A DNA stretch of 36,476 nucleotides, from assembly GCA_028280105.1 (NCBI GenBank), contig JANQML010000101.1, positions 1 to 36,476 of the forward strand, given 5' to 3'. Position numbers and translations under genes: made by a program. The notes below the pieces were generated by a model. It saw only the letters and a program-made list of their open reading frames with translations. It had not been told where the DNA came from and searched no databases. This DNA comes from Desulfobacula sp. GTDB lineage: Bacteria; Desulfobacterota; Desulfobacteria; Desulfobacterales; Desulfobacteraceae. Below, piece by piece: positions 4,480-24,084 of this stretch (its first letter is position 1; each line of letters opens with the position of its first letter).

Positions 4480-5454
4480 TTAAGATTCTTTTTTCAGTTT
4501 TCCAAGAGACTCAAGTAATTTTTTAAGGGATTCTTTTCTTTCTACAAATGCCTTTTTAGCCGTTTCCGGGGTCATGATATTCAATGTGTACCCCGCTTTT
4601 TTCATTTCCTCCTGATATTCAGGCAGGTGGGCTGCTTTTTGAAACGCATCGGTCAATATTTTCACAGCTTCCGGGTCGGCACCCGTGGGCGCGGCAACGC
4701 CCCGGTCGCTGCTGGGAATATAGGACTTGACCCCAAGTTCTTTAAACGTGGGTAAATCCGGTGCCAGAGCCACCCGTTCATCCGCACCGACTGCCAGCAC
4801 ACGGACTTTTTCTCCCAGCCGGAGCATGCTGGCAAGCGTATCTGAAATCAACATGATCTGGCCGCCGAGCAATCCTGCCATTGATTTGGCAGAGCCTTTA
4901 AACGGAATGGTGCTGAACTTGAGCCCTTTCTCTTTTTCAACCTGCAAAATGGCCAGATGATGTGCCAGGTACAGACCGGCCGTGCCAACCGTTATTTTTC
5001 CGGGATTCTTTTTTGCGTCTTCGAGCACATCATCCAGTGTCTTGTATTTACTGTCCGCTCGAACGGCCCACACTGTAGGATCTGCACTGGCAAGGACAAG
5101 CGGCTCAAAGCTCTTGTAATCGAATTTGGTCTTCTTAACCATCGGATAGGTCAGGATATGGGGCAGATTTATGCAGGTGAGAAAATAGCCGTCTGTCGGC
5201 CGGGTTGACATCGTATTCCACCCGACAATCCCGCCGGCACCGGGTACGTTAATGATCGCGATCCGTTTGCCCAATATCTTTTCAGTATATTTGGAGAGGA
5301 TCCTGATCTCCGTGTCAGTCGGGCCTCCTGCAGAGAAGATCACCATCAGTTCAATGGGTCTTTCCGGGAAACCGGCATGACTCTGGATACCAGTGAATAA
5401 TGAAAGGCCAACGGCTAAAATGATGACCGTAGATATTTTTTTTAATTTTTTCAT
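4480..5454 (-). CDS. tctC: Tripartite tricarboxylate transporter binding protein (TctC/Bug family)
   Basis: Periplasmic carboxylate-binding protein, 324 residues from the chosen start. The signal peptide is MKKLKKISTVIILAVGLSLF and onward, ending near SHA. The Bug-family hallmark follows at once: FPERPIELMVIFSAGGPTD. Other family features include IINVPGAGGIVGWN and VPFKGSA-like IPFKGSAKSMAGLLGG. I chose ATG 5454 rather than 5466 because a GAGG ribosome site lies just before it, and the upstream ATG would consume that site. It follows the fused tctAB by 30 bases and is the last gene of the grd-tct operon. The ligand is an organic anion in known members; here it may be the Grd substrate (inference). 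Confidence 0.92.
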   Translation of the reverse strand: MKKLKKISTVIILAVGLSLFTGIQSHAGFPERPIELMVIFSAGGPTDTEIRILSKYTEKILGKRIAIINVPGAGGIVGWNTMSTRPTDGYFLTCINLPHILTYPMVKKTKFDYKSFEPLVLASADPTVWAVRADSKYKTLDDVLEDAKKNPGKITVGTAGLYLAHHLAILQVEKEKGLKFSTIPFKGSAKSMAGLLGGQIMLISDTLASMLRLGEKVRVLAVGADERVALAPDLPTFKELGVKSYIPSSDRGVAAPTGADPEAVKILTDAFQKAAHLPEYQEEMKKAGYTLNIMTPETAKKAFVERKESLKKLLESLGKLKKES

Positions 5455-5484
5455 AACATACCTCATTACTTAATAGTTAAATTC

Positions 5485-7524
5485 TTACAGCATTATTCCG
5501 GCGGGAGTCGATACGACTAAAAATTTATAAAAAACGGCCATCATCACAGCCGTAAACGCAACAGATATACCCAAACATTGCAGGCAGAATTTCCCGGTTC
5601 GTTTCCGCTGCAGAAAAATGGGCATGCCCGTCATGAACAAAAATGTAGACGCATAAAACCCCAATACTTCGACCGAAAAGATGTAGGCAAAGGTAAAAAT
5701 GATAACCAGTGTCATGGTGAGTGCCGGCCATTTTTCAAAGATTACTGCGGATGATTCCTTTGACGGTGCCAGGATGCTTTGGGCCAATAATAAAACAGAC
5801 ATTATAATCAGGGAAACGACCAGTATTTGAGGAAACAGCCTGGGCTCCGGCTCAATTGTCTTTGTATGGAAAAAAAGTGCGACAGACCCGATGAACAACA
5901 CCCCCCCTAAAACAATATTCCACTTTTGCATATTCACTTTGGACAATGGCCAGAGACCGGTTGAGAGGCTGCGCTTTAATACCCCTTTTTCGCTGTTTCG
6001 CTGGATTTTCCTGCTCTTGCTCTCTTTGTATTCAAGGAAGAATGCAAACCCTGCGGATAGAAACGCCAGAAAAATGACAATGATGCAAATCGGCCGGGTC
6101 AGAAAATAGGAAAGGGTTGATCCGTCGGCACTGCCGAGGCGCACACCCAGCAGCAAACCATTCTCCGCAATGCCGCCAAGTATCAGTCCGAGAACAATTG
6201 CGGCTGCTGAAAATCCCAATTTTGCGCCCATATACATCAACACCCCCAGACACCCCATGATATAAACATCCCCCATGCTGTTCCGGGTGGCATAGGTGCC
6301 GATAATGCAAAGGGATAAGATTGCCGGTCCAAGGAAATATTTCGGCACTTTTAATATGCGGGCCATATAGTTTGTGATCGTGATACCGATGGCAAACATC
6401 AAAAACTGGGCCAGAATCATGGCAACCATAAAGGTGTAGGTCACGTCTGCCCGGGACGTATAAAGTTCGTGGCCGGGAAACAGTCCGTGGATCATCAGGC
6501 CGCCAAGCAGAACCGCTGCTGTGGGACTGCCGGGAATTCCCAGGGTAAACAGGGGGATTAAAGACCCGCCGGCCATGGCATTATTGGCTGCTTCGCATGC
6601 GATGACACCATCCGGGTTCCCTTTCCCAAAGGTGTCCCGTTGATCTTTGGGTGAGAACCGTTTTGTTTCGTTGTAGGCTGTCAATGCCGAGACCTGTCCG
6701 CCCGCCCCCGGGATAATACCGATAACCGTTCCCACCAGTGAACCGATACTTAATGCACGGATCCGTCCAAGGGTGCTGACAACCGTCTTGGATAACATGC
6801 CTTTTCTTGATTCAACTTCGGAAATTGTACTGTCAGGTTGTGTAAACGTCTGTTCGAAATAGAGCAGAACCTGTGATAAGGCGAACAGACCGATCAATCC
6901 GGCCACGATATGAATGCCGGCCAATAGGATGTCAGAATCAAACGTATACCGGTAGCTTCCGGTTACCGAGTCCATTCCGATGGTGGATAACAAAAGACCA
7001 ATGGCACCGCTGATAATGCCCTTGACCATTGACCCGACAGAAAGAGACGCAATGATGGTGACACCGAAGATGGCGACCCAGAAGATTTCGGCGGGCCCGA
7101 ATTTCAAGGAAATCTGGGCCAGGGGCGGAGAGAAAATCAACAAGGCGACCATGCCCACTATCCCGCCGATCAGTGATGCCGTTGTCGCATAGTAAATGGC
7201 CTCCCTGCCTCTGCCCTGTTTTGCCATTGGGTGTCCGTCAAACAGGGTTGCGATGTTGGCAGGCGCACCCGGTATATTGAAAAGAATGGCCGTGATCGCC
7301 CCTGCGTATACGCTTCCGCAATAAACACCACCCAGAAGAATAAGCCCGGCAACCGGATCCATACCAAATGTAAACGGCACCAGAATGGCGACCCCCATTG
7401 TGGGTGTCAGTCCGGGGAGGGCGCCGACGACGATACCTCCCAAAACACCTGCAAACAGCACCATAAGGTTGCCAAAAGCAAACACATCCGGCAGTATACC
7501 CATCATTGAGTAAAATAGATCCAT
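5485..7524 (-). CDS. tctA: Fused TctA-TctB tripartite tricarboxylate transporter membrane protein
   Basis: 679 residues, against about 500 for TctA alone. Residues 1 to about 500 are TctA: a long multi-spanning protein with GALPGLTPTMGVAILVPFTF, the LFNIPGAPANIAT signature, and its internal repeat GIIPGAGGQVSAL and LFTLGIPGSPTAAVLLGG. After a basic linker (about 500-535, EYKESKSRKIQRNSEKG) comes a four-helix TctB-like domain (NIVLGGVLFIGSVALFFHTK, EPRLFPQILVVSLI, ... GFYASTFLFM). So both membrane subunits of the symporter are on one chain, with tctC directly downstream. AAGGAG lies before the ATG at 7524. No TctD/TctE two-component genes are near. Placement after grdA implies co-expression with the reductase. 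Confidence 0.92.
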   Translation of the reverse strand: MDLFYSMMGILPDVFAFGNLMVLFAGVLGGIVVGALPGLTPTMGVAILVPFTFGMDPVAGLILLGGVYCGSVYAGAITAILFNIPGAPANIATLFDGHPMAKQGRGREAIYYATTASLIGGIVGMVALLIFSPPLAQISLKFGPAEIFWVAIFGVTIIASLSVGSMVKGIISGAIGLLLSTIGMDSVTGSYRYTFDSDILLAGIHIVAGLIGLFALSQVLLYFEQTFTQPDSTISEVESRKGMLSKTVVSTLGRIRALSIGSLVGTVIGIIPGAGGQVSALTAYNETKRFSPKDQRDTFGKGNPDGVIACEAANNAMAGGSLIPLFTLGIPGSPTAAVLLGGLMIHGLFPGHELYTSRADVTYTFMVAMILAQFLMFAIGITITNYMARILKVPKYFLGPAILSLCIIGTYATRNSMGDVYIMGCLGVLMYMGAKLGFSAAAIVLGLILGGIAENGLLLGVRLGSADGSTLSYFLTRPICIIVIFLAFLSAGFAFFLEYKESKSRKIQRNSEKGVLKRSLSTGLWPLSKVNMQKWNIVLGGVLFIGSVALFFHTKTIEPEPRLFPQILVVSLIIMSVLLLAQSILAPSKESSAVIFEKWPALTMTLVIIFTFAYIFSVEVLGFYASTFLFMTGMPIFLQRKRTGKFCLQCLGISVAFTAVMMAVFYKFLVVSTPAGIML

Positions 7525-7628: not shown

Positions 7629-8084
7629 TCAGACACCTTCCCGTATTTTTGATAAAGACGCCTCCAGTTGTGATGAATCGGTTGTGAGTTCAAAAATACC
7701 GAGCTTATCCTGGTACGTATCTTCCGGTATGATTTCTTTAAAAACAGGTTCAAGGATATGGTAGACTTTGAGTCCCAACTGGACTCCTGCCAACGGACCT
7801 GCAAAACTCGGATCTCCCGTGGTCAAAGTTTCCGCACTGATTTCAACACCCTCAATATCAGCAGCACCCAAAACCACAACCAGTTTGTCGCGCCCGTGCT
7901 CTTGAGCAAGGCGCATCATAAGAGATTGATTTTCCGCGTCCATGGCACCGGCAGCCGTTCAGACAAAACACTCGGTAACCTGATAGATGACCTCGCACCC
8001 GGCCTCTTTCAGCACCTCGTTGATTGTCGGACCCGGCACGCCGTCCCGCTCGCCAAACGCCACGAACAGTTTGTCTTCAAACAT
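7629..8084 (-). CDS. grdA: Glycine/sarcosine/betaine reductase selenoprotein A
   Basis: Small carrier selenoprotein of the reductase complex. Its selenol takes the carboxymethyl group from protein B, and it is re-reduced by thioredoxin. Read from ATG 8084 (ribosome site AAGGAGG), the frame meets TGA at 7961-7959 and continues without other stops to 7629, giving 151 residues with Sec at 42, close to the family length near 157. The Sec context ECFVUTAAGAMDAENQ, the start ERDGVPGP, and ...GDPSFAGPLAGVQLGLKVYH are the GrdA signature. A short stem-loop (7934-7951) after the UGA could serve as SECIS but is weak. Ordinary gene callers will report only the part after the UGA, from ATG 7943. Confidence 0.95.
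7934..7961 (-). other. Sec UGA codon of grdA with candidate SECIS
   Basis: UGA at 7961-7959 (minus) lies in the invariant GrdA context CFV-U-TAAGAMD. The following bases 7951-7934 can fold as CCG-GU...AC-CGG with a short loop. The Sec assignment is strong from protein context; the fold is only a candidate. Confidence 0.75.
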
Positions 8085-8113: not shown

Positions 8114-9565
8114 CTAATTATTATTGCTGCTGTTTTTTTCCAGGAAAAAGCTGAGTCCGTCAGACAACCTGGACATCCTTCCCAGAAACAAACTGCCTTT
8201 TGCGACAAATAACGAATTCTTAATTTTCCCCTGGGCCATGGCCTCTGACGCATGTCCCAGATAGGGGACGGCTGCCGGAATATGCCCCTGGGTGGGAGAA
8301 AAGCCCGGCATGCCGCGTTCATCAATAAACCGCTGCATTTCGGTGCGGTCTATTTCCTTGTTCATAACGGCAAGCGCAGCCATCAGTTTATAGTTGTTTA
8401 AAGGGACGTTGCCGCTGCCTTGCGGTACGGTGACCTCAGGGTTGTGCAGCTCGGTCGAAATTTTATCGACTTCCGTTATTTTTTTACCCATCTTCTCAAG
8501 CGGCCGGATCACCAGGGAGGTCATGATATCCTGCTGGGCAGACCCGTCTCCGATGGTATGCTTTCCAACGGAGTCCAGACGTATCACCGGGCTGACACCG
8601 TCATCCTTTGTAATAAGAAAGGCCATGCTTCCCAGGACGTCTTCCAGAATGGGCATGTTGTGGTTGAGATGTCCCTGGAATTTCATTCCCAGCTTGGTCT
8701 GGCAGCCGCCGCCGAAAACGACGACCGTATCAAATGTTCCGGCTTTAACCAGGCTTGCCGCATGAACCATGGCATAAACCGGGCCGGCACAGAATGCTTT
8801 AACGTCGCTGCCCGTTGCATTCACCAATCCGCAGTCTTCACCCACAGCCTTTGCCAGGTTGCCGCCTCCCCGCTGATAACGGTCTCCGATGGCCTCTTCT
8901 GAGCAGGACATGATGTAATCAACCTGTTCCGGTTTTGTATCTGACCGTTTCAGCAATTGCCGCACAGCCAGAACACCGGATGCCTTGGTGATAAGGTTTT
9001 CAAAAAGCACTTCCGCCTGAAGGGATTCATCCTCATCGTGATCCCTTTGGAATGACCCCACAAGATCCTTTTGATAGTAGAGCGGCAGGGCCCCGCTGTT
9101 TTCAATGGCGTACTTAACCTTATTCACGGGTTTGCCCTCGCCAAGTTTCTCCAGATCCGTCCGGACGGACAGCGGGTGATCTGCAACTGCGGATCGAAGC
9201 TGCTCTGTAAATTCCGGAGTGAACCAGACCAGGTCAAACTGGTCGAACATTTTCAAAAACCCGTAAAATTCCAACTGGTTGAGGAAAGGGCCGTATGCGC
9301 CTTCCCTGCTGGCGCCTTCAACCGGATTTTTCCACCAGGGTTCAGGCCGCTTTGCCAGGTCTTCAGGATGCATGTTGCCGATAAAAACCTGGTTAGGGGG
9401 ATAACTGACCGCCTCGTCAAAACTTCTCAGGCGGGCCTGGATTTCAGGTCCAAGCTGGGGGTTGTATTTTATCTCTCTTTTGGGTTTTGATCCGTAACGG
9501 ACAAACTCAGGCGTGTGTGCGAGCAAATAGGCGTAGGATTGAACTACCGGGAAATCACCCATCAT
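8114..9565 (-). CDS. grdC: Glycine/sarcosine/betaine reductase protein C, GrdC
   Basis: 483 residues. In known systems protein C takes the acetyl group formed when selenoprotein A cleaves its carboxymethyl selenoether, holds it as a thioester, and with GrdD releases acetyl phosphate. The fold is that of ketoacyl synthase III/thiolase enzymes. The nucleophile region is visible as DVKAFCAGPVYAMVHAA (Cys259), followed by VVVFGGGCQTKLGMKFQGHL, and a late Asn/His-type region (ELHNPEVT; GFSPTQGHIPAAVPYLGHA). The N-terminal region has LWxTPE-like VWFTPEFTEQL. The start overlaps the trxA stop (ATGATG), with AGGAG upstream. The usual partner grdD is not next to it, nor anywhere in this window. Confidence 0.93.
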   Translation of the reverse strand: MMGDFPVVQSYAYLLAHTPEFVRYGSKPKREIKYNPQLGPEIQARLRSFDEAVSYPPNQVFIGNMHPEDLAKRPEPWWKNPVEGASREGAYGPFLNQLEFYGFLKMFDQFDLVWFTPEFTEQLRSAVADHPLSVRTDLEKLGEGKPVNKVKYAIENSGALPLYYQKDLVGSFQRDHDEDESLQAEVLFENLITKASGVLAVRQLLKRSDTKPEQVDYIMSCSEEAIGDRYQRGGGNLAKAVGEDCGLVNATGSDVKAFCAGPVYAMVHAASLVKAGTFDTVVVFGGGCQTKLGMKFQGHLNHNMPILEDVLGSMAFLITKDDGVSPVIRLDSVGKHTIGDGSAQQDIMTSLVIRPLEKMGKKITEVDKISTELHNPEVTVPQGSGNVPLNNYKLMAALAVMNKEIDRTEMQRFIDERGMPGFSPTQGHIPAAVPYLGHASEAMAQGKIKNSLFVAKGSLFLGRMSRLSDGLSFFLEKNSSNNN

Positions 9566-9900
9566 GCGATCTCCTCCCCGGCCAGAAATTTTTCAACGGT
9601 ATGGCGCAAATCTTCTTCAGTAATCTGATCGCCCGAGATCCGTCCGACCTCCTCACCGTCGCGGTAGAAAAGAAAGGCCGGCAGGCTCATCAGTCTCAAC
9701 CCCATGCACAACCGCCGGTTTCCGGTCGTATCCACTTTCAACAGCCGCATTTCATCTTTATGCGCTTCGGCAAGGGCCTCCATGGTGGGCATCAACTCAA
9801 TACACCGCACGCATTTGGGGCCCCAGAAATCAACAACTATCGGTTTTGGACCCTCTTTAACGAGATCATGATAGTTGTCTTTGTTAATTTCAATTTCCAT
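9562..9900 (-). CDS. trxA: Thioredoxin of the reductase operon
   Basis: 112 residues, single thioredoxin fold. It passes electrons from the thioredoxin reductase encoded in the same operon to selenoproteins A and B. The active site is WGPKCVRC (Cys30, Cys33), not the common WCGPC; the cis-proline loop is MSLPAFLFY (Pro74). Atypical active-site motifs are known for thioredoxins in glycine reductase clusters. The start ATG 9900 follows GGAGG; the gene begins 23 bases after the true stop of grdEB and overlaps grdC by four bases, so it is tightly coupled to the complex genes. Confidence 0.93.
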   Translation of the reverse strand: MEIEINKDNYHDLVKEGPKPIVVDFWGPKCVRCIELMPTMEALAEAHKDEMRLLKVDTTGNRRLCMGLRLMSLPAFLFYRDGEEVGRISGDQITEEDLRHTVEKFLAGEEIA

Positions 9901-9923: not shown

Positions 9924-12464
9924 TTATTTGCCGGGCGGTTCAGTCAGGTCTTGAACCGCATCCGTTACTATTTTTTTTCTCAATTTTTTTTCATCTGCAG
10001 GGGGAAGTGCCGGATCTCCCACAGGGTGCGGGATGGCGGTTGCAGGGTAAATACGGTTGGCCCCCACTGTCCGGGCGATACTTGTCAGTGTACAGATCAG
10101 AACGGACGGAATGCCGGCCCGCTCCAGTTCTTTTACGATCGTTGCGCCGCAACGGGTACCGGTCCCTCATGTGGAAGTAAACACGACACCCACCTTTTGT
10201 TTAAATTGCCGCCGGATATCCTCGGCTATTTCCCGGCCGAATTTTTCGGAGTTTTCCACTGAGGTGGCATTGCCGGCCGTGGTATAGAAATAATTCCCCA
10301 CCTTTCCCACAATCCCCGCATCTTCCAGATCCCTGAGTGCATCCAGGGGCAGCAGCCGGTTCGGATCTTCCTGGGCAGCGGCATTATCGTATCCGCCGTG
10401 TGCCACTGTATATTGATCCGGGTCCAGGCGTTGCAGATCACCTATGGGATATTTTCCGAACCTGGTGGCCATGGACATTTCAATACGGTCCGGGTTATCC
10501 TTTGGGGTCAATCCCCCTTCGGTACAGAGTATAACCGTTGAATCAGACAGATTTGCCAGCGGAGGCGCCGGATCAACCCGGTCAAACCTGGGTAAAGGCA
10601 GTTCCGTCTTTGGTTCCAGACCCTTCATTTTGGCCGCCAGCATTGAAACGGCCCGCATTGCACCATTCTCTGTCCTTGTAATGGAATGACGGATATTTCT
10701 GGTCAAATAGCTTCCTGTTTCAGGGGATCTGCCTTTGCTCAGGCACAAGGCCAGTTCCACCATGGCTTCAGCCGCCTGTTTCATTTTCGCTGCCGATTCC
10801 CCGCAGGGGACCATGTACGTGTCATTCCGGTAGACATCCACACCGGGATTGGACTCGGCGATTCCAACCACCGTGGGGATGGACAGTTTCTCCCCCACGG
10901 CTTTGCCAGCCGCCCCGCAGGCCATTCCATAACGCCCGGCAAGGAAACAGGGGCCTGCGATAAAGAGGTCGGGAGAATAGTGTCCGGCAAGTTCTGCAAC
11001 CGAGGCGCTTATTTCGTCCAGATTTGTTCCCATGGTATTGTCACCGCAAATAATGGTGGCGACAATTTCCGCTTTTTGGCCAAACAGCATTTTAAAGGCC
11101 ATGCCGGGTCCAACCGGACCTTCCCTGACCTGGAGTTCCGCATCGGCCTTATCCTCTCCGCCGATCTGGCCGAAGAACTGGTTCAGGTAATGAACCACTC
11201 TGAACGGTCCCTCTTTTTTAGAAACAGACCCTTGGTTTCCAGCACCGTCCGCACTGCAGGACAAATAGCCGAATCCAAGCTGGTTTGTGGAAGAATGCAC
11301 GCGGCTTAGGGGCAGGGAAGCTGTCTCTTTAAGCGAATTTTCCACCCCCGGGAAACGATCGGAACCGATAATGGTTTCTGCGGCAGGCAAGGTGATCCTG
11401 AAATCATTGTTCCCCGTGCTGACAATATGCTCCGCCTCTGCAGTGGTCTCTGCCAGAGAGGGGGTTTTCCCGTCTTCACCGGCAAACTCATTCAAAATAA
11501 GGACGGTTTTGATGCCTTCCCGTTCCAGGCGGCGGCAGATCATCATCACGTCGGTGAGGGTGTTGGCCCCACCTTCCTGATTAATGACAACACCGGACAA
11601 GTCCATATCTTTGGCGATGTGTACGATCTTTTGGGCAACCTTTTCCTTGTCTTCCAAACGACTCATTTCATTGGCCAGGATTACCCCGGAAAAATGAATC
11701 GACCGGCCGTGCTGTTTGATCATTTCGTAAACCAAGGGATTGTTCTGGTGAATATAGGTGCAGGTTTTATTGCTGGGCATGACAAAATTTCCGCTTGTGA
11801 CGGCGTTATCCAGTGCCTCAAGCGGATTTAAAGACAGCGGCATCACCTCATCCATTGCCTGACCCTTTAAATATGTTCTTCGAAGGTCTCCCTGGGACTG
11901 TACAAGATAAACAAGTCCTGTCCCGGCTTTGTCATTCTGGGGTAAAGGCCATGTGAACCGTACGGATTGGTCCGGTTCACAGGTCGTTGCCAGGCTGCCA
12001 AGATATTCTGCGGCCTTAAAAAGGTTTTGCCGGATGGCATGATCCGCATCAACCCTGCCGGCCTCGTTTCTGACCTCAAAGACCAGTACAAGATTATGGG
12101 TACCGGAAAACGGAGAGAACCATCCGGCCGCCTGGCTCATATCAACCAGGCCTTCCTGTATGCCGGGAAGTTCACAAACACCCATGACGGCAGCCCCTCT
12201 TAAAATATGCGTTTTTCCTTTCCCGTGTTCTGTTTGGGAAGGTCCTTGTTTTACCCTGGGTTCGACGATATCCAGTACAGGGGCGATTCTGACCGAATGG
12301 CCCGGCCGGGCAATCTCAATCCCGATCAATCGTACAGATGGATCATCATCAAGCAATGCTGCCAGATCATCCTTTTGAATGGCCAGTTTTCCATCTGAAA
12401 GCGTTCCCTTTGAAGAAAAAACCATTTCTTTGACAGGGTGGATGAGGTGTTCCAATTGCATCAT
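9924..12464 (-). CDS. grdB: Fused GrdE-GrdB: pyruvoyl proprotein plus selenoprotein B
   Basis: 846 residues, joining two subunits normally encoded separately. Residues 1 to about 410 match GrdE (proprotein of the substrate-binding subunits); the site of self-cleavage to a pyruvoyl group is visible as SNKT-CTYIHQNNP (Thr234-Cys235). From about residue 420 (FRVVHYLNQFFGQIGGEDKA) to the end it is GrdB, with ICGDNTMG, AGPCFLAGRYGMACG and SNPGVDVYR. The frame meets TGA at 10169-10167 (Sec766, context VFTST-U-GTGTRCGAT), then runs 80 more residues (GANRIYPATAIPHPVGDP) to TAA at 9924. The GrdB redox motif is usually given as UxxCxxC; here it is UxxGxxC. It is second in the operon after trxB. Whether glycine, sarcosine, betaine or another N-substituted glycine is the substrate cannot be told. 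Confidence 0.95.
10140..10169 (-). other. Sec UGA codon of grdB domain with candidate SECIS hairpin
   Basis: UGA occupies 10169-10167 on the minus strand. Twelve bases later, 10154-10140 form a perfect 6-bp stem CGTTGC/GCAACG with a GGC loop. Bacterial SECIS elements lie inside the coding region just after the UGA, with about 11 bases between UGA and the apical stem and a G-rich loop, so position and shape fit. Confidence 0.75.
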
Positions 12465-12513: not shown

Positions 12514-13473
12514 TTAAGCAACTTCACCCGGGTATGCATTACATCTTTTCATCATGAGGTATTTTTCTGCTGTGATGGCAGCCTGCGAGCCGTCACCGAC
12601 CGCAGTGGCAACCTGCTTGACCTCTTTTTTGCGGACATCACCGGCAGCAAAAAGTCCGGGTACGGATGTTTCCAATCTCTCATTGGTAAGAATCCAGCCG
12701 TCAGGGTCTGTAGCAACGGCATCGGAAAGAAAAGAGGTGTTGGGGATCTGCCCCACATAAATAAAAGCCCCATTTGCTTTTAAATCCCGTTTTTCAGATC
12801 CGTTGACGCTGGCAAGCCGGATATTTTCAAGAAGGTCATCCCCCTCGAATTTTTCAACCACACTGTCCCAGATAACGCTTACATTGTTGCAGCCGCGAAT
12901 GAGGCATTGGCAGGCATCTGAGGCACGGAACCGATCTCGTCTGTGAATGATGTACACATGGTTGCATAACCGGGACAGATAGGCCGCCTCTTCAAGGGCC
13001 GAATCCCCGCCACCCACCACAGCGACATCCAGCCCCTCGAAAAAATTCCCGTCACATACCGCACAATAGGAAATGCCGGCCCCGGAAAATTTTTTCTCGC
13101 CCCGGGCTCCCAAACGTTTAGGGGAACACCCGGTGGCAACAATGGCAATCTCACTTTGAACGACCCTGTCGCCTGCCGTAACGATAAACCGGTCGCTTTC
13201 CTGCTGTAAGGTTGTCGAGCCGGCCCTTTTCAGAACCTCACAATTGTATTTTTGCGCCTGTTCCAGAAACAGGTTGGCAAGATGTTGGCCTGTGATGCCA
13301 TCAGGATGTCCTGGATAATTGTAAATATCATCCGTCAATAACATCTGCCCTCCCGGGCTCTTGGGTTCCAAAACAACCGTTTTAAGCCCTGCACGGGCAC
13401 CGTACAATCCTGCGGTCAATCCGGCCGGCCCCGCTCCTAAAATGATTAAGTCGACATTTTTCGGCACTGTCAT
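12514..13473 (-). CDS. trxB: Thioredoxin reductase
   Basis: 319 residues, FAD- and NAD(P)H-dependent, reducing the operon thioredoxin. The FAD motif GAGPAGLTAGLYGARAG is near the start, the redox site CAVCDG is at Cys137/Cys140, the nucleotide motif is VVGGGDSALEEA, and the final FAD motif is GLFAAGDVR. I start at ATG 13473, which has GGAG at normal spacing; a longer frame to 13497 would need TTG. It is first in the operon, so the electron supply is made together with the Grd proteins. A short palindrome (13509-13518) and a TTGACA box (13555-13560, minus) lie upstream. Confidence 0.94.
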   Translation of the reverse strand: MTVPKNVDLIILGAGPAGLTAGLYGARAGLKTVVLEPKSPGGQMLLTDDIYNYPGHPDGITGQHLANLFLEQAQKYNCEVLKRAGSTTLQQESDRFIVTAGDRVVQSEIAIVATGCSPKRLGARGEKKFSGAGISYCAVCDGNFFEGLDVAVVGGGDSALEEAAYLSRLCNHVYIIHRRDRFRASDACQCLIRGCNNVSVIWDSVVEKFEGDDLLENIRLASVNGSEKRDLKANGAFIYVGQIPNTSFLSDAVATDPDGWILTNERLETSVPGLFAAGDVRKKEVKQVATAVGDGSQAAITAEKYLMMKRCNAYPGEVA

Positions 13474-13508
13474 TTTTTCTCCATCCTGAAAAATCAAAAT
13501 ACTATAAA

Positions 13509-15114: not shown

Positions 15115-15177
15115 TTAGAGGCATGTGTTCAAATCAGGATCACACTAAAACCCTTTTACAATGGAGAATAGGCCGTG

Positions 15178-16776
15178 ATGAAAAAGAATCGTAGATTGCA
15201 CTGCTGGTGCATGATATTTTTATTTGTTTCCGTGATGACTTTGGGGACAACAGGTTCGGCAATGGCTCAGGAGCCAATTAAAGGCGGTATTTTGAATGCT
15301 GTCTTGAAAGCAGAACCACCACACCTTGTCAGTGCGTTGCACACCGCTGACCCTACGCAGATAATCTCAACTAAAATACACGATGGCATAATCAACTATG
15401 ACATGGAAGGCAATTGGCAGCCGGCACTGGCTGAGTCTTGGGAGATAAACTCGGACACAACGGAAATTAAGTTCAATTTGCGCAAAGGTGTCAAATGGCA
15501 CGATGGAAAAGATTTCACTTCAGAGGACGTTGCTTTTTCGATCATGTTGGTAAAAAAACATCATCCACGTGGCAAGGTGACCTTTAAAGAGGTTGCATCG
15601 GTTGAAACACCGGATCCCTACACGGCAGTCATAAAATTTAACACGCCGTCTCCATATGTCAAAAGATTACTTAGTTCTATGGAAACCCCAATGGTTGCCA
15701 AACACATTTATGAAAATACGGATGCTCTGACAAATCCAAATAATATTGCTCCAATCGGGACGGGACCATTTAAATTCGTGAAATGGGTAAGGGGAAGTCA
15801 TATTATTCTTGAGAGGAATCCGAATTATTGGGATAAGCCTAAGCCTTATCTCGACCGTATAGTGTTTCAGATAATCCCGGATCATTCCGCTCGTTCAATT
15901 GCATTGGAGTCTGGTGAGATCGACGTAGGGCCGATAAATCCCGTTCCATTATCCGATGCCAATCGTTTATTATCTATGCCGCATTTGGTCGGTGACTCAA
16001 CCGATAATGCCTTTGTGAGTCCTTTTACTCGCCTTGAGTTTAACTTGGAGAATAAGTACCTGAAACACAGGAAGGTACGCCAGGCTATCGCCCATTCAAT
16101 TGATAAACAATTCATTCTTGATAACATATGGTTTGGACATGGAGAGATCGCGACAAGCCCTGTCCATGTCCTGTTGAAACCTTTTTATACTGCGGATGTT
16201 CCTAATTATGATTACAACCTCGATAAAGCCAACAGACTTTTGGATGAGGCGGGTTTCAAGAAAGATGCAAAAGGTATCCGATTTAAATTGAACCATGATT
16301 ATTTACCGCTGGGATCTCCCTATGAGCGAACTGCTGAATACCTTAAGCAGACCCTCAAGAAGATCGGTATCGATATCACTATTCGCGGATCGGACTTTCC
16401 CACGTACATTCGCCGCGTCTACACGCTACGTGATTTCGACTTCACAAATAATATGATGTACGGTACAGCAGACCCCACTGCCGGCCTACAACGTTTATAT
16501 TATTCAAAAAACTTCATACCTGGTGTACCATTCTCCAATGGTTCGGGTTACTCCAACCCTGAAATGGATCGTTTGCTGGAGGCTGCTCGGACAGACACTA
16601 AAAATAGAGTGAAGTTTTGGCATGATGTGCAGAGGTTAGTGGTAACCGATTTGCCGGATTATCCTCTTACGTATCTTTTCAGAACCACAATCTATAATAA
16701 AAGAGTTAAGAATCTCATCATTAGATCAACAGGATCATTTGACAATTGGGCTGATGCCTACCTTGACAAAAAATAG
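15178..16776 (+). CDS. Peptide/opine ABC transporter binding protein (family 5)
   Basis: 532 residues from ATG 15178 (GTG 15175 also fits the GGAG site). The Sec signal peptide ends near SAMAQ. The mature part has the family-5 pattern: a GG start (PIKGGILNAVLKAEPPHLVS), ALAESWEINSDTTEIKFNLR, KGVKWHDGKDFTSEDVAFSI, IGTGPFKF, and a late R-x-A-hydrophobic-H-S-I-D block (VRQAIAHSIDKQFI). It binds dipeptides, oligopeptides, nickel, opines or similar in known members. It heads a full set dppBCDF-like, and the next genes encode an opine-dehydrogenase-type enzyme and a RidA protein, so a non-peptide amino-acid derivative is as likely as a peptide. Confidence 0.92.
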   Translation: MKKNRRLHCWCMIFLFVSVMTLGTTGSAMAQEPIKGGILNAVLKAEPPHLVSALHTADPTQIISTKIHDGIINYDMEGNWQPALAESWEINSDTTEIKFNLRKGVKWHDGKDFTSEDVAFSIMLVKKHHPRGKVTFKEVASVETPDPYTAVIKFNTPSPYVKRLLSSMETPMVAKHIYENTDALTNPNNIAPIGTGPFKFVKWVRGSHIILERNPNYWDKPKPYLDRIVFQIIPDHSARSIALESGEIDVGPINPVPLSDANRLLSMPHLVGDSTDNAFVSPFTRLEFNLENKYLKHRKVRQAIAHSIDKQFILDNIWFGHGEIATSPVHVLLKPFYTADVPNYDYNLDKANRLLDEAGFKKDAKGIRFKLNHDYLPLGSPYERTAEYLKQTLKKIGIDITIRGSDFPTYIRRVYTLRDFDFTNNMMYGTADPTAGLQRLYYSKNFIPGVPFSNGSGYSNPEMDRLLEAARTDTKNRVKFWHDVQRLVVTDLPDYPLTYLFRTTIYNKRVKNLIIRSTGSFDNWADAYLDKK

Positions 16777-16783
16777 GATAATG

Positions 16784-16821
16784 GCGTACCCAATGACCCT
16801 TGCTGGGTAGATTGGGTGCGC
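16784..16821 (+). terminator. Hairpin after the binding-protein gene
   Basis: GCG-ACCCAAT-ACCC on the left pairs with GGGT-ATTGGGT-CGC on the right around a short loop; TTTTATTGTT comes some bases later. Such a stem behind a binding-protein gene often allows more binding protein than permease to be made. Confidence 0.5.
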
Positions 16822-16981
16822 TGATACACCTTTTATTGTTAAGGATTGAAGCAAAAATAATCTACTCCCGGCAGAAATGAAGAAAGCCGAAACGACTCTT
16901 ACTTTCACCGACGTCTACATCATGATATTGTGGGTATAATATATGAGATATATAAAAATTTTTTAAGTAGGTTTTGATAAA

Positions 16982-17950
16982 ATGACTAAATATATAATCA
17001 GGCGGCTTCTTCAGGCGATTCCTGCAATCCTGGGTATCATAACAATCAATTTCATTATTTTGAATCTTGCCCCTGGTGATGCCGTAGATGTTCTTGCCGG
17101 AGAAGCGGGCACTGCCACTCCGGAATATCTTGCACAACTTCGGCATCTCTACGGCCTCGACCAGCCCTTGTACGTCCAATACTTTAAGTATATATGGAAC
17201 CTAATTAATTTTGATCTCGGTTTTTCATACCGCAACCAAATGCCTGTAATCGATCTCATAATGCAAAGAGTTCCGGCGACGCTGCTTCTTATGGTGTCCT
17301 GCATAACTCTGGCTGTAATATTGGGTTCTTTGCTGGGTGCAATTGCCGCCAGGTACTCAGGGACAGTCATTGATTATTTTACAACTTTTATAGCTCTGCT
17401 TTGTTACTCTATCCCGGTTTTTTGGATAGGGCTTATTATGATCATCATTTTTTCTATAAATTTAGGGTGGTTGCCTAGTGGCGGCATGGTGACTTTAGGT
17501 GCCGGTTATACCGGTCTTGCGTGGGTTTGGGATGTTTTAAAGCATTTAATTATGCCCTGTACTTCGCTTGCATTGCTTTTTATGGGAATTTACACCCGGC
17601 TCATGCGAGCGTCAATGTTAGAAGTTTACGATTTGGATTTCGTTCGTACCGCGTATGCCAAAGGTCTGTCAGACGGGCGCATAGCCACAAGGCACGTTAT
17701 GCGAAATGCTTTTCTTCCGGTTGTAACAATGGCTGGTATTCACACAGCAGGAATTTTGGGAGGGGCAGTTGTTGTTGAGGTGGTTTTCAATTGGCCAGGC
17801 CTTGGCAGGCTGGCGTTTGATGCGGTCTTTGCAAGGGATTTTAATCTCCTTTTGAGTATTTCGGTTCTATCTTCAATCCTTGTTATTGCAGTCAACATTA
17901 CAATAGACATAATATACACTTTTCTTGATCCCCGGATTGAGGTGCGCTAA
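16982..17950 (+). CDS. ABC transporter permease, DppB-like
   Basis: 322 residues, six hydrophobic segments, inner-membrane channel subunit. The N-terminus MTKYIIRRLLQAIPAILGII, then LAPGDAV and LRHLYGLDQPLYVQYFKYIW, is the DppB/OppB signature. The EAA loop is visible as DFVRTAYAKGLSDGRIATRH, followed by AFLPVV. The stop shares a base with the next start (TAATG), so dppB and dppC are translationally coupled. The ribosome site is weak. Confidence 0.93.
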   Translation: MTKYIIRRLLQAIPAILGIITINFIILNLAPGDAVDVLAGEAGTATPEYLAQLRHLYGLDQPLYVQYFKYIWNLINFDLGFSYRNQMPVIDLIMQRVPATLLLMVSCITLAVILGSLLGAIAARYSGTVIDYFTTFIALLCYSIPVFWIGLIMIIIFSINLGWLPSGGMVTLGAGYTGLAWVWDVLKHLIMPCTSLALLFMGIYTRLMRASMLEVYDLDFVRTAYAKGLSDGRIATRHVMRNAFLPVVTMAGIHTAGILGGAVVVEVVFNWPGLGRLAFDAVFARDFNLLLSISVLSSILVIAVNITIDIIYTFLDPRIEVR

Positions 17951-18795
17951 TGATAAATACGATCCGAGAATTTTGGTTTCAATTTAGCCAGCACCGTGGT
18001 GCAGTTGTTGGAGCAATTGTTATTGTGATGATTCTGTTAATGGCAGCATGCGCTGATCTGGTCTTTGATCACGGTCCGCTTGATCTTGTCGCTAAACCTT
18101 TTCTTCATCCAGGTGAAAATTTTCAGCACCCCCTTGGTACCGATAGTTTAGGGAGGGATGTTTTGGCCGGCATCTTTTTTGGTACGCGTGTCTCTCTTCT
18201 TATCGGTCTTATTGCGACGATAATTGCGACCACAGCAGGTGTTACTATCGGCGCTTTTTCCGGATATTACGGTGGCAGGATTGATGACGGACTTATGAGA
18301 TTTACGGAAATTTTCCAAACGATCCCCGCCTTCCTGCTGATGATAATTATTGTCGCCATATTCCAACCGTCAATCAAGGTAATAGTGATTGCGATCGGCC
18401 TTACTGCATGGCCGGATATTGCACGATTGGTTCGAAGTGAATTTGTCTCTTTGCGAGACCGCGAATTTGTGGAGGCCGCAAGAGGTATTGGAATGAGAGA
18501 TATTCGAATTATTTGTACCCAGGTCCTGCCAAACGCAATTGCACCGATTGTAGTAATGGGATCCTTTGTTGTAGCAAGATCAATCCTCAATGAATCCGGT
18601 CTGGCCTTTTTGGGTCTGGGGGATCCAAACGTTATGAGCTGGGGAAGTATGATAGGCCGTGGCAGGGAAGTGATGCGAATTGCCGAATACCTTAGCATAA
18701 TCCCCGGGGTTGCGATTTTTCTTACCGTGGTGGCATTGAATATGCTCGGAGATGGGTTGAACGATGCCCTTAACCCACGCCAGAAGAAGCGTTAA
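17950..18795 (+). CDS. ABC transporter permease, DppC-like
   Basis: 281 residues, the second channel subunit. Family marks include HPLGTDSLGRDVLAGIFFGT near residue 57, then SLLIGL, and an EAA loop EFVEAARGIGMRDIRIICTQ with LPN following. The C-terminus (GDGLNDALNPRQKKR) is typical for DppC/OppC. It overlaps dppB by one base and is 11 bases from the first ATPase gene. Confidence 0.93.
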   Translation: MINTIREFWFQFSQHRGAVVGAIVIVMILLMAACADLVFDHGPLDLVAKPFLHPGENFQHPLGTDSLGRDVLAGIFFGTRVSLLIGLIATIIATTAGVTIGAFSGYYGGRIDDGLMRFTEIFQTIPAFLLMIIIVAIFQPSIKVIVIAIGLTAWPDIARLVRSEFVSLRDREFVEAARGIGMRDIRIICTQVLPNAIAPIVVMGSFVVARSILNESGLAFLGLGDPNVMSWGSMIGRGREVMRIAEYLSIIPGVAIFLTVVALNMLGDGLNDALNPRQKKR

Positions 18796-18806
18796 GGAGA
18801 GATCTG

Positions 18807-19787
18807 ATGTCAGTACTTGAGGTAAAGAACCTTCAAACAAATTTCTATACACGGGCGGGAATCATTCGCGCCGTAGACAATGTCAGCTTTTCTGTAAATA
18901 GGGGAGAGACTCTTGCCGTAGTCGGTGAATCAGGATGCGGAAAGTCAGTTACAGCATTGTCAGTTCTTAGACTTATCCCCTCACCTCCCGGGCGTATTGA
19001 TGGTGGTGAAATTCTGCTCAAGGGAAGAGATTTACTTAAGTTGACTCCTGGTGAAATGAGGGCACTGCGAGGTAGCCAGGTTTCCATGATATTCCAGGAA
19101 CCGATGACATCTCTCAATCCGGTTCATCGTGTGGGATTTCAGATTGGCGAAGCGATATTGGCTCATGAGAATATTTCTAAAAGAGATGTAACCAATCGTT
19201 GTCTTGATTTGCTCGAGTTGGTCGGAATACCGGACCCAAGTCGTTGTATACGCGAATATCCCCATAGGCTTTCAGGGGGCATGCGCCAACGCGTCATGAT
19301 TGCGATGGCCGTCGCTTGTAATCCAGCCGTTTTGATTGCAGACGAACCAACCACCGCTTTGGATGTCACCGTACAGGCGCAGGTGCTCAAACTCTTAAAA
19401 CGACTAAAGGATGAATTAGGGTTGGCTTTGATTCTTATTACCCATGATCTTGGGGTGGTTGCGGAAACGGCAGATAAAGTAATTGTCATGTATGCGGGAC
19501 GCAAAGTAGAGGAGGGTTCGACTGTCCAAATATTTAAGCGCCCTTTACATCCTTATACATCAGGCCTCCTTGGGGCAATTCCGCGTATTAATCAGGAACA
19601 GAATTGCAGAGATTATTCACTAAAAGAAATCAAGGGGGTTGTACCGCCGCTTCTAAAAAGACCGAAAGGATGCTCGTTTTCCCCGAGATGTCCACGTGTC
19701 CTTGACAAATGCCGTGTTGAGAAACCGTCTCTAATATCATTGAGCACCGGCCAGCAAGCCGCCTGTTTCAATCCCGAGGATTGGTGA
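18807..19787 (+). CDS. ABC transporter ATPase, DppD-like
   Basis: 326 residues. Walker A GESGCGKS is at 40-47, the Q-loop is in MIFQEPMTSLNP, the signature is LSGGMRQRV, Walker B is VLIADEPTTALD, and the H-loop is ITHDLGVV. The C-terminal extension with Cys pattern GCSFSPRCP is the oligopeptide-type tail. An AGGAGA ribosome site precedes the ATG. It works as a pair with the DppF-like protein. Confidence 0.94.
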   Translation: MSVLEVKNLQTNFYTRAGIIRAVDNVSFSVNRGETLAVVGESGCGKSVTALSVLRLIPSPPGRIDGGEILLKGRDLLKLTPGEMRALRGSQVSMIFQEPMTSLNPVHRVGFQIGEAILAHENISKRDVTNRCLDLLELVGIPDPSRCIREYPHRLSGGMRQRVMIAMAVACNPAVLIADEPTTALDVTVQAQVLKLLKRLKDELGLALILITHDLGVVAETADKVIVMYAGRKVEEGSTVQIFKRPLHPYTSGLLGAIPRINQEQNCRDYSLKEIKGVVPPLLKRPKGCSFSPRCPRVLDKCRVEKPSLISLSTGQQAACFNPEDW

Positions 19788-19942
19788 GAGATTAAAGAGG
19801 ATTCGTGAGAGATTGAAATAGAAGTAGTACCCCGGGTAAACGGGATGAAATCCGGGATAACTGTCTCCACAAAAGTCATACATAAAAATCAAGAAATCAA
19901 CTCCTGGGGTGGTAATATTTTTTCAATAAATTTGGATATAAG

Positions 19943-20899
19943 ATGGAACCTTTACTTTGTGTTAAAGATTTAAAAAAATACTTTACAACACCACGCGGTA
20001 TTTTAAAAGCTGTCGATGGCGTCTCGTTAACTTTGGAAAAAGGCCAGACAGTTGGACTCGTGGGCGAATCCGGATGCGGTAAATCGACTCTTGGAAAATC
20101 CATTATGAGGCTCACCGAGCCTACGAGCGGCAATATCTCTTTTGAAGGAATAGACGTTTTGAGTTTAAGTAAAAGGGAACTAAGGCCATTTAGGAAAAGA
20201 ATACAATACATTTTTCAGGATCCTTTCTCTTCCTTAAATCCTCGTTCCACTGTTCAGCGCATACTCAAAGAACCTTTGATCGTACATGGTGTAAAAGATA
20301 AAACCGAGTGTAAAAATAGAATAGAATGGCTTATGAACAAGGTCGGCCTTGGAATTGAAAGCCTGAACAATTACCCACACGAATTTTCAGGTGGCCAACG
20401 ACAGCGTATCGGTATAGCGAGAGCGCTTGCATTGAATCCGAGCCTTATCATCTGTGATGAACCGGTTTCAGCGTTAGATGTCTCTATCCAGGCCCAGATA
20501 TTGAATCTTTTAAGTAAGCTGCAGCGTGAATTGGGACTCTCGTATTTGTTTATTTCTCACGATCTCTCAGTCGTTAAGTATATTTCAGATATTGTCATGG
20601 TGATGTATCTTGGAAAAATTGTTGAAGTAGCAAACCATGCGGATATCTGGTCCGAACCGCTCCATCCCTACACGCAAATACTTATGTCCTCAGCCCCGCT
20701 GCCAGATCCTGTCATCGCTACCAAACGCCACGAGACCTCTTTAAAAGGAGATGTGCCAAGCCCCTTAAATGTGCCTTCAGGATGCCGGTTTCGCACCAGA
20801 TGTCCCATCGCTGTTAAGAGTTGTTCGGAAAATGAACCTGCGTTGCGGGAAGTGAGAGGAGACCATTTTGTGGCTTGCGATCTTGTTGTCACCAGGTAA
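19943..20899 (+). CDS. ABC transporter ATPase, DppF-like
   Basis: 318 residues. Walker A GESGCGKS is at 41-48, the Q-loop YIFQDPFSSLNPR, the signature FSGGQRQRIGIARAL, Walker B LIICDEPVSALD, and the H-loop FISHDLSVV. The C-terminal tail has GCRFRTRCP. It is separated from dppD by 155 bases holding a direct repeat of GTGAGAGATT and no gene. It completes the transporter. Confidence 0.94.
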   Translation: MEPLLCVKDLKKYFTTPRGILKAVDGVSLTLEKGQTVGLVGESGCGKSTLGKSIMRLTEPTSGNISFEGIDVLSLSKRELRPFRKRIQYIFQDPFSSLNPRSTVQRILKEPLIVHGVKDKTECKNRIEWLMNKVGLGIESLNNYPHEFSGGQRQRIGIARALALNPSLIICDEPVSALDVSIQAQILNLLSKLQRELGLSYLFISHDLSVVKYISDIVMVMYLGKIVEVANHADIWSEPLHPYTQILMSSAPLPDPVIATKRHETSLKGDVPSPLNVPSGCRFRTRCPIAVKSCSENEPALREVRGDHFVACDLVVTR

Positions 20900-21001
20900 A
20901 AAAGCGTCACATCATGGGTTGGTTGTGCCGTCAGATGGACAGCCGTGGGTTTCGGTAGAGACTGAATATTTTCAAACTCCAAAATTAGCAGGTGTTCTGT
21001 A

Positions 21002-22096
21002 ATGAAAGACAAAGTAGCAGTTCTTGGCGGTGGTGCCGGTGCTCATGCAGAGGCTTTCGAACTTGCCACCAAAGGGTTCAGAGTGAATATCTGTCAAGTT
21101 CCAGAGCGTAAAAATAATTTTAAGAAAACGCTTATGGGCAAAATAAAGGCCACTGGCAAAATCAGGGGTGTTGCAAAGCTAAATCTGGCAACTACCGATT
21201 TTCAGGAGGCAATAACGGGTGTCAAGACTATCTTTTTAGCAGCGCCATCTTTTGCCCATAAGTTATTTGCCTCCTACTGCGCCCCTTACTTAGAAGATGG
21301 GCAGATCATTGTTTTAACGCCAGGGACGGGTGGGTCGCTAGTTTTTGCCAAGGAATTAAGAGATAGAGGTGTTAGAAAAAATCTAACCATAGCTGAAACA
21401 ATAGCACTTCCCTATGGAACGAGAATGCAAGAGCCTGGGCATGTTCAAATACGGGCTAAGACTGTAAATAACCCTATTGGTGTGTTCCCTGCCAAAAGGA
21501 CAGATGAAGTTGTTCAGTATTTACAACAATTTTATCCTGAATTGGTGCCCTTATCGAATGTACTTGAGGCCGCTTTGAATAGCACAAACGCAATCCTTCA
21601 TCCGGCGGCAACGCTACTCAATGTTGGCAGTATAGAATCTGGTAATTGCTTCATGTTGTATAAAGATGGAATGGGTCCGTCGTCACTAACCTTAATGGGC
21701 GCCTTGGTAAACGATAGAGCGATGATTGGAAAGGCATTTGGGCTTAATATGGATACCGGAGATGCCTTTCAGAAAGGAAGAATAGAAGCCTTGAAAGAGT
21801 TCTTAGATAGTACCCTTGGCGAAAATTCGTACGAGGCGGTATCACGTTTGAAAGGGCCTTCATCTTTAGAAAACAGGTATATTACGGAAGATGTCCCTTA
21901 TGCTCTTGTTCTGTGGGAATCGCTTGCCAATGCGGTTAATGTAAAAGTCCCTGCAATAAGTTCAATTATCGAGATTTTTTCTATAATTTGTGGGGTCGAT
22001 TTTCGAAAAGACGGGAGAACCGTTTACGATCTGGGTTTATCCGGATTAAGTCTTTCTCAAATAACTAAATTTTTGCATGACGGAGAAGAAGATTAA
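21002..22096 (+). CDS. Opine dehydrogenase family protein (NAD/NADP octopine/nopaline dehydrogenase)
   Basis: 364 residues. The N-terminal Rossmann domain has GGGAGAHAEAFELATKGFRV (from about residue 9). The C-terminal domain has NSTNAILHPAATLLNVGSIE, where His200 fits the catalytic histidine of this family. Known enzymes reduce or oxidise the C-N bond joining an amino acid to a 2-keto acid; in breakdown they give amino acid plus keto acid. It lies directly after the ABC transporter genes (102-base gap) and before an enolase-superfamily gene and a RidA gene, which argues for catabolism of an imported opine-like or other N-substituted amino acid. The ribosome site is weak. The substrate is not predictable from sequence. 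Confidence 0.88.
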   Translation: MKDKVAVLGGGAGAHAEAFELATKGFRVNICQVPERKNNFKKTLMGKIKATGKIRGVAKLNLATTDFQEAITGVKTIFLAAPSFAHKLFASYCAPYLEDGQIIVLTPGTGGSLVFAKELRDRGVRKNLTIAETIALPYGTRMQEPGHVQIRAKTVNNPIGVFPAKRTDEVVQYLQQFYPELVPLSNVLEAALNSTNAILHPAATLLNVGSIESGNCFMLYKDGMGPSSLTLMGALVNDRAMIGKAFGLNMDTGDAFQKGRIEALKEFLDSTLGENSYEAVSRLKGPSSLENRYITEDVPYALVLWESLANAVNVKVPAISSIIEIFSIICGVDFRKDGRTVYDLGLSGLSLSQITKFLHDGEED

Positions 22097-22466
22097 CCGG
22101 ATATTTCACGAATCGATTTTACTTTAGCTGTTAGGCATTATGTCTAATTCAACCGCCCGGCACATTGTGCCAATTGCTTTACATAACCGTTTTTTTTGAA
22201 AAACTCAGTTTTTTTCTTGACAGAAATTTTCTTTTAATGCTAAACTTAATTATTGATTATTAATAATCAATAATTGATCTGGGTTCTTTAGAATCGATAT
22301 GGTTGTAACTACCAGAGCAATATTTCACCACCGATCCGGTGAACCCATAGTCATCTTGATCCTGAATATTACCAGGTGGGATCGTATTTTGTTTAGAACG
22401 TTAGCATAAATAACCCGATGCAACTATAAGGAAGATAACTTAAACAGACTAAAAGGAGAATTATTT
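22097..22466. other. Intergenic region with second promoter unit
   Basis: After the dehydrogenase there is a small GGCAC/GTGCC hairpin (22159-22171), then the promoter-palindrome unit at 22217-22275, then a leader of about 190 bases with a TTCACC/GGTGAA stem. AAAGGAG precedes the next start. No gene is seen. Confidence 0.6.
22217..22275 (+). promoter_or_regulatory. Promoter with second 28-bp perfect palindrome
   Basis: TTGACA at 22217-22222, 18 bases, then TAAACT (22241-22246) as -10. A perfect 28-bp palindrome runs from 22248 to 22275, left half AATTATTGATTATT. Same box, spacer and palindrome placement as at 14880-14939, with the core TTATTAATAA shared, so the same dimeric regulator probably binds both. 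Confidence 0.65.
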
Positions 22467-23561: not shown

Positions 23562-23697
23562 CTGGACGGTTTGCCTTTGCCTGCCCTAAACAATCAATTC
23601 GTATCATGTTAAGGGGTTCTCCTTACTATTGCTGTACAAAAAGGTGAAATATTATAAATTAAAAGAAAAATTTGAATGATTGAGGAGAAATTGAAAG

Positions 23698-24084
23698 ATG
23701 AAAACTAGATATTTGCAGCCTTCAACATTGCCTGTGCCAGCCGCGCCCTATGTTCCTGGAATAAGAAAAGGTATGTTTCTGTTCACTTCAGGGCAGATCT
23801 CAGTGGATGGTAATGGCAACGTAGTTGGCGAAGGTGATATCAAGGCTCAAACCTTGCAGGTACTTCAAAATATGAAAACCATCCTGGAAGAAGGTGGTGC
23901 AAAAATAACAGATGTTGTGAAAACCACTGTTTTCATAGCAGATATAAATGATTTTGCTGCAATGAATCAAGTCTACACTGAATTTTTTGGCGACTGCAAA
24001 CCGACACGGAGTACGGTACAGGCAACCTTGGCTCGCCCGACGTTACTAGTTGAAATAGAAGCCATAGCAATCGTCGCAGAATAG
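23698..24084 (+). CDS. ridA: RidA family enamine/imine deaminase
   Basis: 128 residues, trimeric family. Arg104 (PTRSTVQATL) and Glu119 (VEIEAIA) match the residues that hold the carboxylate and water in active RidA, so it should hydrolyse 2-imino or enamino acids to keto acids and ammonia. GGAG precedes the ATG. Next to an opine dehydrogenase homolog and an enolase-type enzyme it probably clears an imine or enamine intermediate of that pathway. Confidence 0.93.
   Translation: MKTRYLQPSTLPVPAAPYVPGIRKGMFLFTSGQISVDGNGNVVGEGDIKAQTLQVLQNMKTILEEGGAKITDVVKTTVFIADINDFAAMNQVYTEFFGDCKPTRSTVQATLARPTLLVEIEAIAIVAE

Follow-up and report, generated by a model that had tools for sequence, protein, structure and literature searches.

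A Desulfobacula sp. gene that joins GrdE-like and GrdB-like parts and probably encodes a single-chain protein B

Results

The window analysed here is the whole 36,476-nucleotide stretch of contig JANQML010000101.1 (Desulfobacula sp., assembly GCA_028280105.1). Its minus strand carries, in order, genes for a thioredoxin reductase, a fused GrdE-GrdB-like protein (E-B), thioredoxin, GrdC, GrdA, TctA-TctB, and TctC (Table 1). The frame of the fused gene runs from position 12464 to 9924 over 846 codons, and its sole in-frame stop is the TGA at codon 766. Gly_reductase (PF09338) matched residues 2-403 of the window protein in Pfam (E 2.8e-104), GRDB (PF07355) matched residues 421-765 (E 2e-127; 425.7 bits, cut-off 22), and the selenoprotein B model TIGR01918 matched residues 422-841 at 506.7 bits, above its cut-off of 65.45. 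These matches agree with an earlier, sequence-only reading of the locus, which had placed GrdE and GrdB in one 846-residue frame, here on the minus strand, and had proposed a profile search against both families. The C-terminus also matched PF24696 (UGSC) weakly, just below the cut-off, and a sequence search of Protein Data Bank chains with the window protein (E ≤ 0.01) gave no match. An AlphaFold2 model built from three rows (the window protein and the separate E and B proteins of the relative L033, described below) had a mean pLDDT of 48.2 and a pTM of 0.33; it was too poor for placing the sites of the two halves and was discarded.

Table 1. Positions of the features described in the text. 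Positions are those of the window unless another record is named.
Feature	Position	Strand	Remark
Thioredoxin-reductase-like flavoprotein	12514..13497	-	Pyr_redox_2; 44% to L033 counterpart
Fused GrdE-GrdB-like gene	9924..12464	-	846 aa with Sec766; open reading frame and Pfam
E part, residues 1-406	11247..12464	-	Up to conserved GrdE end column; PF09338
E-half loop S224-L244	11733..11795	-	Includes Phe227 and Thr234-Cys235; 21 residues identical to L033
Phe227 codon	11784..11786	-	Column of pyruvoyl-forming Cys of GrdE/PrdA
Linker GAGNQGSVSKKEGPF, residues 407-421	11202..11246	-	15 residues
B part, residues 422-846 and stop	9924..11201	-	PF07355, TIGR01918
GTG codon 423	11196..11198	-	9 bases downstream of GAGGGA
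TGA, Sec766	10167..10169	-	Motif UGTGTRCG; UxxG, not UxxC
SECIS_4 (RF01990)	10129..10166	-	Starts directly after TGA766
Thioredoxin	9562..9900	-	Profile match
GrdC (component C, beta)	8114..9565	-	NF040746, 659.5 bits vs cut-off 450
GrdA selenoprotein, Sec42	7629..8084	-	NF040748, 185.8 bits vs cut-off 130
TctA-TctB fused transporter subunit	5485..7524	-	Fused likewise in L033
TctC solute receptor	4480..5466	-	80% to L033
PrdA-PrdB frame, P. acidaminophilum	L098 1461-3488, about 258960-260987 of NZ_CP007453.1		

The selenocysteine predicted at codon 766 was borne out by three observations. The RF01990 element scored 45.6 bits (E 1.1e-7, gathering 38), TGA occupies the same position in all 38 of the other GrdB rows (2 of which are duplicates), and a tRNA-Sec gene (75.9 bits) lies elsewhere in the window assembly. 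The context STUGTGTRCG lacks the UxxC arrangement; Gly replaces its Cys in the window and in L033, L037, L044, L045, L054, and L067.

The assembly consists of 413 contigs, with completeness of 98.25% and contamination of 6.51%. The idea that the window is a foreign contig was judged unlikely, because its composition falls inside the spread of 20 contigs sampled from the same assembly and, for a flanking gene, a genome of the genus contains a counterpart that matches at 76% over residues 1-496.

Trees of the E and B halves, from which L068 and L069 (E) and L042 (B) were excluded, gave the same sister, L033 (Desulfarculus MAG SURF_10, QZKP01000039.1), with support of 100/99 and 100/98. The next relative in both trees was L054, with moderate support (94/90 and 93/82), and neither half of the window protein fell inside the glycine/sarcosine or betaine clades. 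L033 shares with the window the gene order GrdE, GrdB, thioredoxin, GrdC, GrdA, TctAB, TctC, with identities ranging from that of the reductase to that of TctC in Table 1, and the L033 reductase gene lies further upstream, behind a GntR-like gene. L033 also has the Phe, Ser, and Thr-Cys columns considered below and the UGTGTRCG motif. Unlike the window, it encodes the two proteins in separate genes, which are 53% (E) and 61% (B) identical to the corresponding window halves. The longest stretches of identity between the two are residues 224-244 of the E half (21 residues) and residues 757-786 around Sec in the B half (30 residues), implying that both sites are under constraint.

GrdD (component C alpha; NF040747, E ≤ 0.001) had no match in the window assembly, so that a complete glycine reductase, as judged by the presence of GrdD, was not found there. 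Nor did GrdD turn up in the flanking sequence fetched for L033, L074, L075, L080, and L081, though GrdC and GrdA occur there; GrdD adjoins grdC in L071, L072, and L073. The TGA at codon 152 of the window GrdA (7629-7631) was considered as a second Sec codon and rejected, as the GrdA proteins of L033 and L075 end within 2 residues of it. A. noterae GrdA has a Cys near this point, and we read the TGA as an ordinary stop. A GrdA-like paralogue with Cys for Sec (CSLCC versus CFVU) lies antiparallel to the operon in L033 (12375-12893, minus strand) and in L075 (2450-2970, minus strand).

We compared the junction between the halves, which enzymes of this type normally have as separate proteins, with the ends of separate GrdE proteins. 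In 33 of 34 relatives GrdE stops exactly 8 residues past the window Phe398 column; the 34th (L009) is cut by the end of its contig or locus, and the stops used are TAG, TAA, and TGA. L005 and L043, which had no junction anchor in a first comparison, were assessed by this end-column analysis. At the stop column the window has GGT (codon 407), and its frame continues through the linker GAGNQGSVSKKEGPF into RVVHYLNQFF. Every GrdE-GrdB relative that we read is split here. The sequence-only reading had counted split relatives against a fusion; such relatives are indeed the rule, but in the window itself the two halves run together.

The same splitting would fit an artefact, in which two separate genes are concealed by an error of sequencing or assembly or by a frameshift confined to one strain. 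The linker contains a run of six A, and GTG423, the sole ATG, GTG, or TTG in codons 404-440, could be a grdB start with GAGGGA upstream of it. We simulated all single-base indels in codons 404-421 (54 deletions and 216 insertions). The next stop after a deletion was codon 427 in all 54 cases. Insertions gave a stop at codon 416 in 142 of 216 cases, which would be a possible though unusual gene end, at codon 439 in 69, and at codons 404, 406, 410, 417, and 418 in one case each. However, none of the 270 indels restored a stop at codon 407, where GGT is at least 2 base changes away from any stop codon, and this result argues against a simple sequencing error. There is no grdB ATG in this region, and a start at GTG423 would make GrdB 2 residues shorter than the shortest start in the panel. 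Thus, a stop and start hidden by such an error, a possibility raised with the original reading, did not emerge from the simulation, and we consider an artefact unlikely.

A genuine fusion might also be combined with internal initiation at GTG423, such that the fused chain and a free GrdB-like protein are both made. The spacing between GAGGGA and GTG423 would suit a start codon, but no other panel row starts at this position and the product would be shorter than any of them; we regard this arrangement as somewhat less likely still.

In several further relatives, grdB follows a stop in the frame of grdE; in L033, grdE ends in a TGA that overlaps an ATG in another frame. The halves also share a frame, separated by no more than a stop and a short gap, in L070 (P. 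acidaminophilum grdG/grdF) and at several phylum loci. Where the two genes share a frame across such a short gap, read-through joins could form easily.

We surveyed fused and split forms in one phylum and in plasmid records. The sequence-only reading had called for such a survey. Among the genomes searched at the class, genus, and phylum levels, the GrdE-GrdB join was seen solely in the window. PF07355 matched in 118 of 389 class genomes. Strong matches among those listed came from 7 other genomes (G222, G021, G172, G148, G104, G315, and G127; E 7.3e-66 or better), with open frames of 262-386 codons versus 773 in the window, and the other listed matches had E-values of 1e-16 or worse, covered mostly the C-terminal part, and lay in open frames of at most 362 codons. 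Many class genomes encode short proteins that match the C-terminal part of PF07355 alone (e.g., G000:C231:1605-1844). With the whole fused protein as query, 19 of 395 phylum genomes matched. In 7 other genomes with one hit across both halves, a further stop lies inside the hit, and in the remaining matches the halves were separate hits or one half alone exceeded the threshold. A genus search matched 1 of 26 genomes, the window itself. Of 63 genomes in the class to which the Desulfarculus MAG L033 belongs, 5 matched, with joined halves in none. Of 23 matching plasmid records, 4 regions were read and all are split. A scan of genome contigs for relatives returned one locus, L033; three scans of viral contigs for more relatives found none, and a class search around G414, covering a single genome, added nothing. 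Searches of the open-access literature turned up neither a fused GrdE-GrdB nor a fused PrdA-PrdB. The GrdE-GrdB join has one assembly as its only source, a point against the reading favored below.

The sequence-only reading had also proposed that Thr234-Cys235 is the pyruvoyl-forming pair, so that cleavage would leave a chain of residues 235-846 with an N-terminal pyruvoyl group and Sec766. The pair is present in the E half, and we mapped it onto characterized proproteins. The pyruvoyl peptide of C. difficile GrdE comprises aa 242-266, that of PrdA in the same study comprises aa 421-427, and the PrdA N-terminal peptide is quoted at m/z 642.3457 (all from the available text of PMC9908766). Residue 250 of A. 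noterae GrdE aligns with window residue 235, and its SGN-C cysteine, 8 residues earlier, is therefore residue 242. The m/z of the PrdA peptide fits pyruvoyl-IGPASK in a hand sum of residue masses. The TC-[IV]GP cysteine of PrdA aligns with window Phe227 in three of three proteins (A. noterae, P. acidaminophilum, and E. gilvus). Because the GrdE and PrdA cysteines both align with residue 227, the pyruvoyl column is 227 and not 235. The second conserved Cys of GrdE (SAC) is Ser231 in the window.

The window E half thus lacks the Cys that marks GrdE, GrdG, and PrdA as proproteins, and with Phe227 and Ser231 it lacks both processing cysteines, as do the GrdI/FarE-like proteins that the available text of PMC10838667 describes as not being proproteins. 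Cys occupies the 227 column in 21 of the 35 rows that have both parts, and 20 of these 21 rows have the second Cys too; in the long-branch row L009, the Cys at this column depends on a gapped alignment. By the motifs in the available text of PMC9751293, 11 of the 21 rows match glycine, 3 match sarcosine, and 7 match neither, and the 14 rows that lack this Cys all fail to match either motif. Tyr or Phe fills the column in 13 of these 14 rows and Thr in 1, and the second Cys is kept in 2 of them, implying that the two Cys losses do not always occur together.

A relocated cleavage site at Thr234-Cys235 would gain from the occurrence of the pair in L033, within the longest identical stretch of the E half, and from Thr-Cys being the residue pair at the PrdA site as well. 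However, it would lie 8 residues past the known pyruvoyl-Cys column, Cys occurs at column 235 in just 2 of 35 rows (the window and L033), and FarE/GrdI proteins without both cysteines are stated not to be proproteins (PMC10838667, available text). We therefore hold a relocated site to be quite improbable, and the assignment of Thr234-Cys235 as pyruvoyl-forming is not supported. The accompanying idea of carbonyl and selenol in one polypeptide keeps its Sec766 part and probably loses its pyruvoyl part; with the residue at the processing site changed, the placing of both reactive groups on the window chain is probably wrong.

The window E half kept 41 of 57 conserved columns, the lowest retention among 31 rows (L033, 51 of 59), in counts that excluded L068, L069, L009, and L050 (E) and L042 and L009 (B). 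Low retention in the E half could mean decay or changed function. A decaying locus, with an E half on its way to losing function and a fusion that arose as a side effect, is consistent with this retention and with the end branch of 0.78 in the E tree versus 0.36 in L033, but it seems very improbable given that the whole frame is open, the active-site loops are frozen relative to L033, and the operon is intact and syntenic with L033.

The finished plasmid NZ_CP007453.1 of the isolate Peptoclostridium acidaminophilum DSM 3953 encodes a PrdA-like part followed by a PrdB-like part, the two sharing a single open frame (Table 1). The PrdA-like part reaches 555 bits at 8-436 against TIGR04480, short of that model's cut-off of 700, and the PrdB part matches TIGR04483 at 446-673 with 303.9 bits versus a cut-off of 300. 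In a tblastn search of plasmid records with this frame, 25 matched, in 22 cases across 80% or more of the frame; the P. acidaminophilum record alone matched the whole frame in one piece, and the other long matches came in 2-3 pieces. Like the window gene, this frame joins a proprotein-like part to a selenoprotein-like part. Unlike the window gene, it belongs to the paralogous proline-reductase family, retains the pyruvoyl Cys (Thr264-Cys265, with Sec at codon 588), and has a possible internal start. The annotation begins a separate prdB at the ATG of its codon 438, so that the frame may yield one protein, two, or both. As judged from open frames, joins of proprotein and selenoprotein parts thus occur beyond the window, in a sister family, and this join implies that fusion does not require loss of processing. 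A pyruvoyl Cys and Sec in one polypeptide, as proposed for the window, is a better fit to the P. acidaminophilum frame.

Discussion

We favor the interpretation, at a probability of roughly two in three, that the fused gene of the window specifies, as one chain, the protein B of a glycine-reductase-type selenoenzyme whose E component is of the non-pyruvoyl kind. The E half looks like an unprocessed component of the GrdI/FarE kind, and protein B is therefore probably one uncut Sec chain. In domain content, Sec, and GrdA/GrdC/thioredoxin context, the window resembles the glycine and sarcosine protein B systems (GrdE/GrdB and GrdG/GrdF), in which, unlike in the window, the pyruvoyl Cys is present. 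The betaine GrdI/GrdH rows (E. gilvus L073, annotated as GrdH, and A. noterae L093/L087, assigned by tree only) share with the window both Phe at column 227 and Ser at column 231, and GrdI of betaine reductase, described as not being a proprotein in the available text of PMC10838667, is in this respect like the predicted E part. In contrast to the window, these rows consist of separate genes, form a distinct supported clade, and keep UxxC. The same text describes FarE as lacking the two cysteines, as not being a proprotein, and as similar to GrdI, and FarB as lacking the conserved CxxC; the window E half likewise lacks the processing cysteines and its B half has Gly for the first Cys, whereas fluoroacetate FarE and FarB are encoded by separate genes.

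The substrate class is constrained by published motifs and model cut-offs. The GrdB glycine motif matched 11 of 35 rows and the GrdF sarcosine motif 3 of 35 (both from the available text of PMC9751293), with the window in neither set. The window scored 488.6 bits against the sarcosine GrdF model NF040794 (cut-off 800), 435.5 bits against the betaine GrdH model NF040795 (cut-off 775), and 75.9 bits against the fluoroacetate FarE model NF053623 (cut-off 675). By these measures, the predicted enzyme is not a glycine or sarcosine reductase by motif, nor a betaine or fluoroacetate enzyme by model cut-off.

Under the single-chain interpretation, the fused E-B chain would stay uncut, and the frozen loop 224-244, where Phe227 stands in for the pyruvoyl Cys, may be the means by which the E domain shapes the substrate site. 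TctABC would import a carboxylate or carboxymethyl compound that needs no Schiff base, and selenol chemistry at Sec766 and GrdA could then lead to a carboxymethyl-selenoether. Thioredoxin would re-reduce the selenoenzyme system. GrdC would receive the acetyl group. As GrdD was not found in the assembly, GrdC might hand this group on otherwise, perhaps to CoA, which is a guess.

If the fusion is real, it would provide protein B as one polypeptide with its domains fixed at 1:1, which would be convenient for structural work. A fusion without pyruvoyl processing in the window, beside a PrdA-PrdB frame that retains it, would allow the role of the carbonyl to be compared, and the P. acidaminophilum frame makes the one-chain question testable in a cultured species. 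Were the relocated site true after all, this lineage would have given up the ancestral cysteine, and the PrdA-PrdB frame would represent a second, independent route to the same layout.

A divergent cluster at 15175-24084 of the window encodes an Opp-type ABC transporter, an octopine/nopaline-type dehydrogenase, an enolase-superfamily protein, and a RidA-like protein. From this cluster, we would guess that N-carboxymethyl amino acids are candidate substrates.
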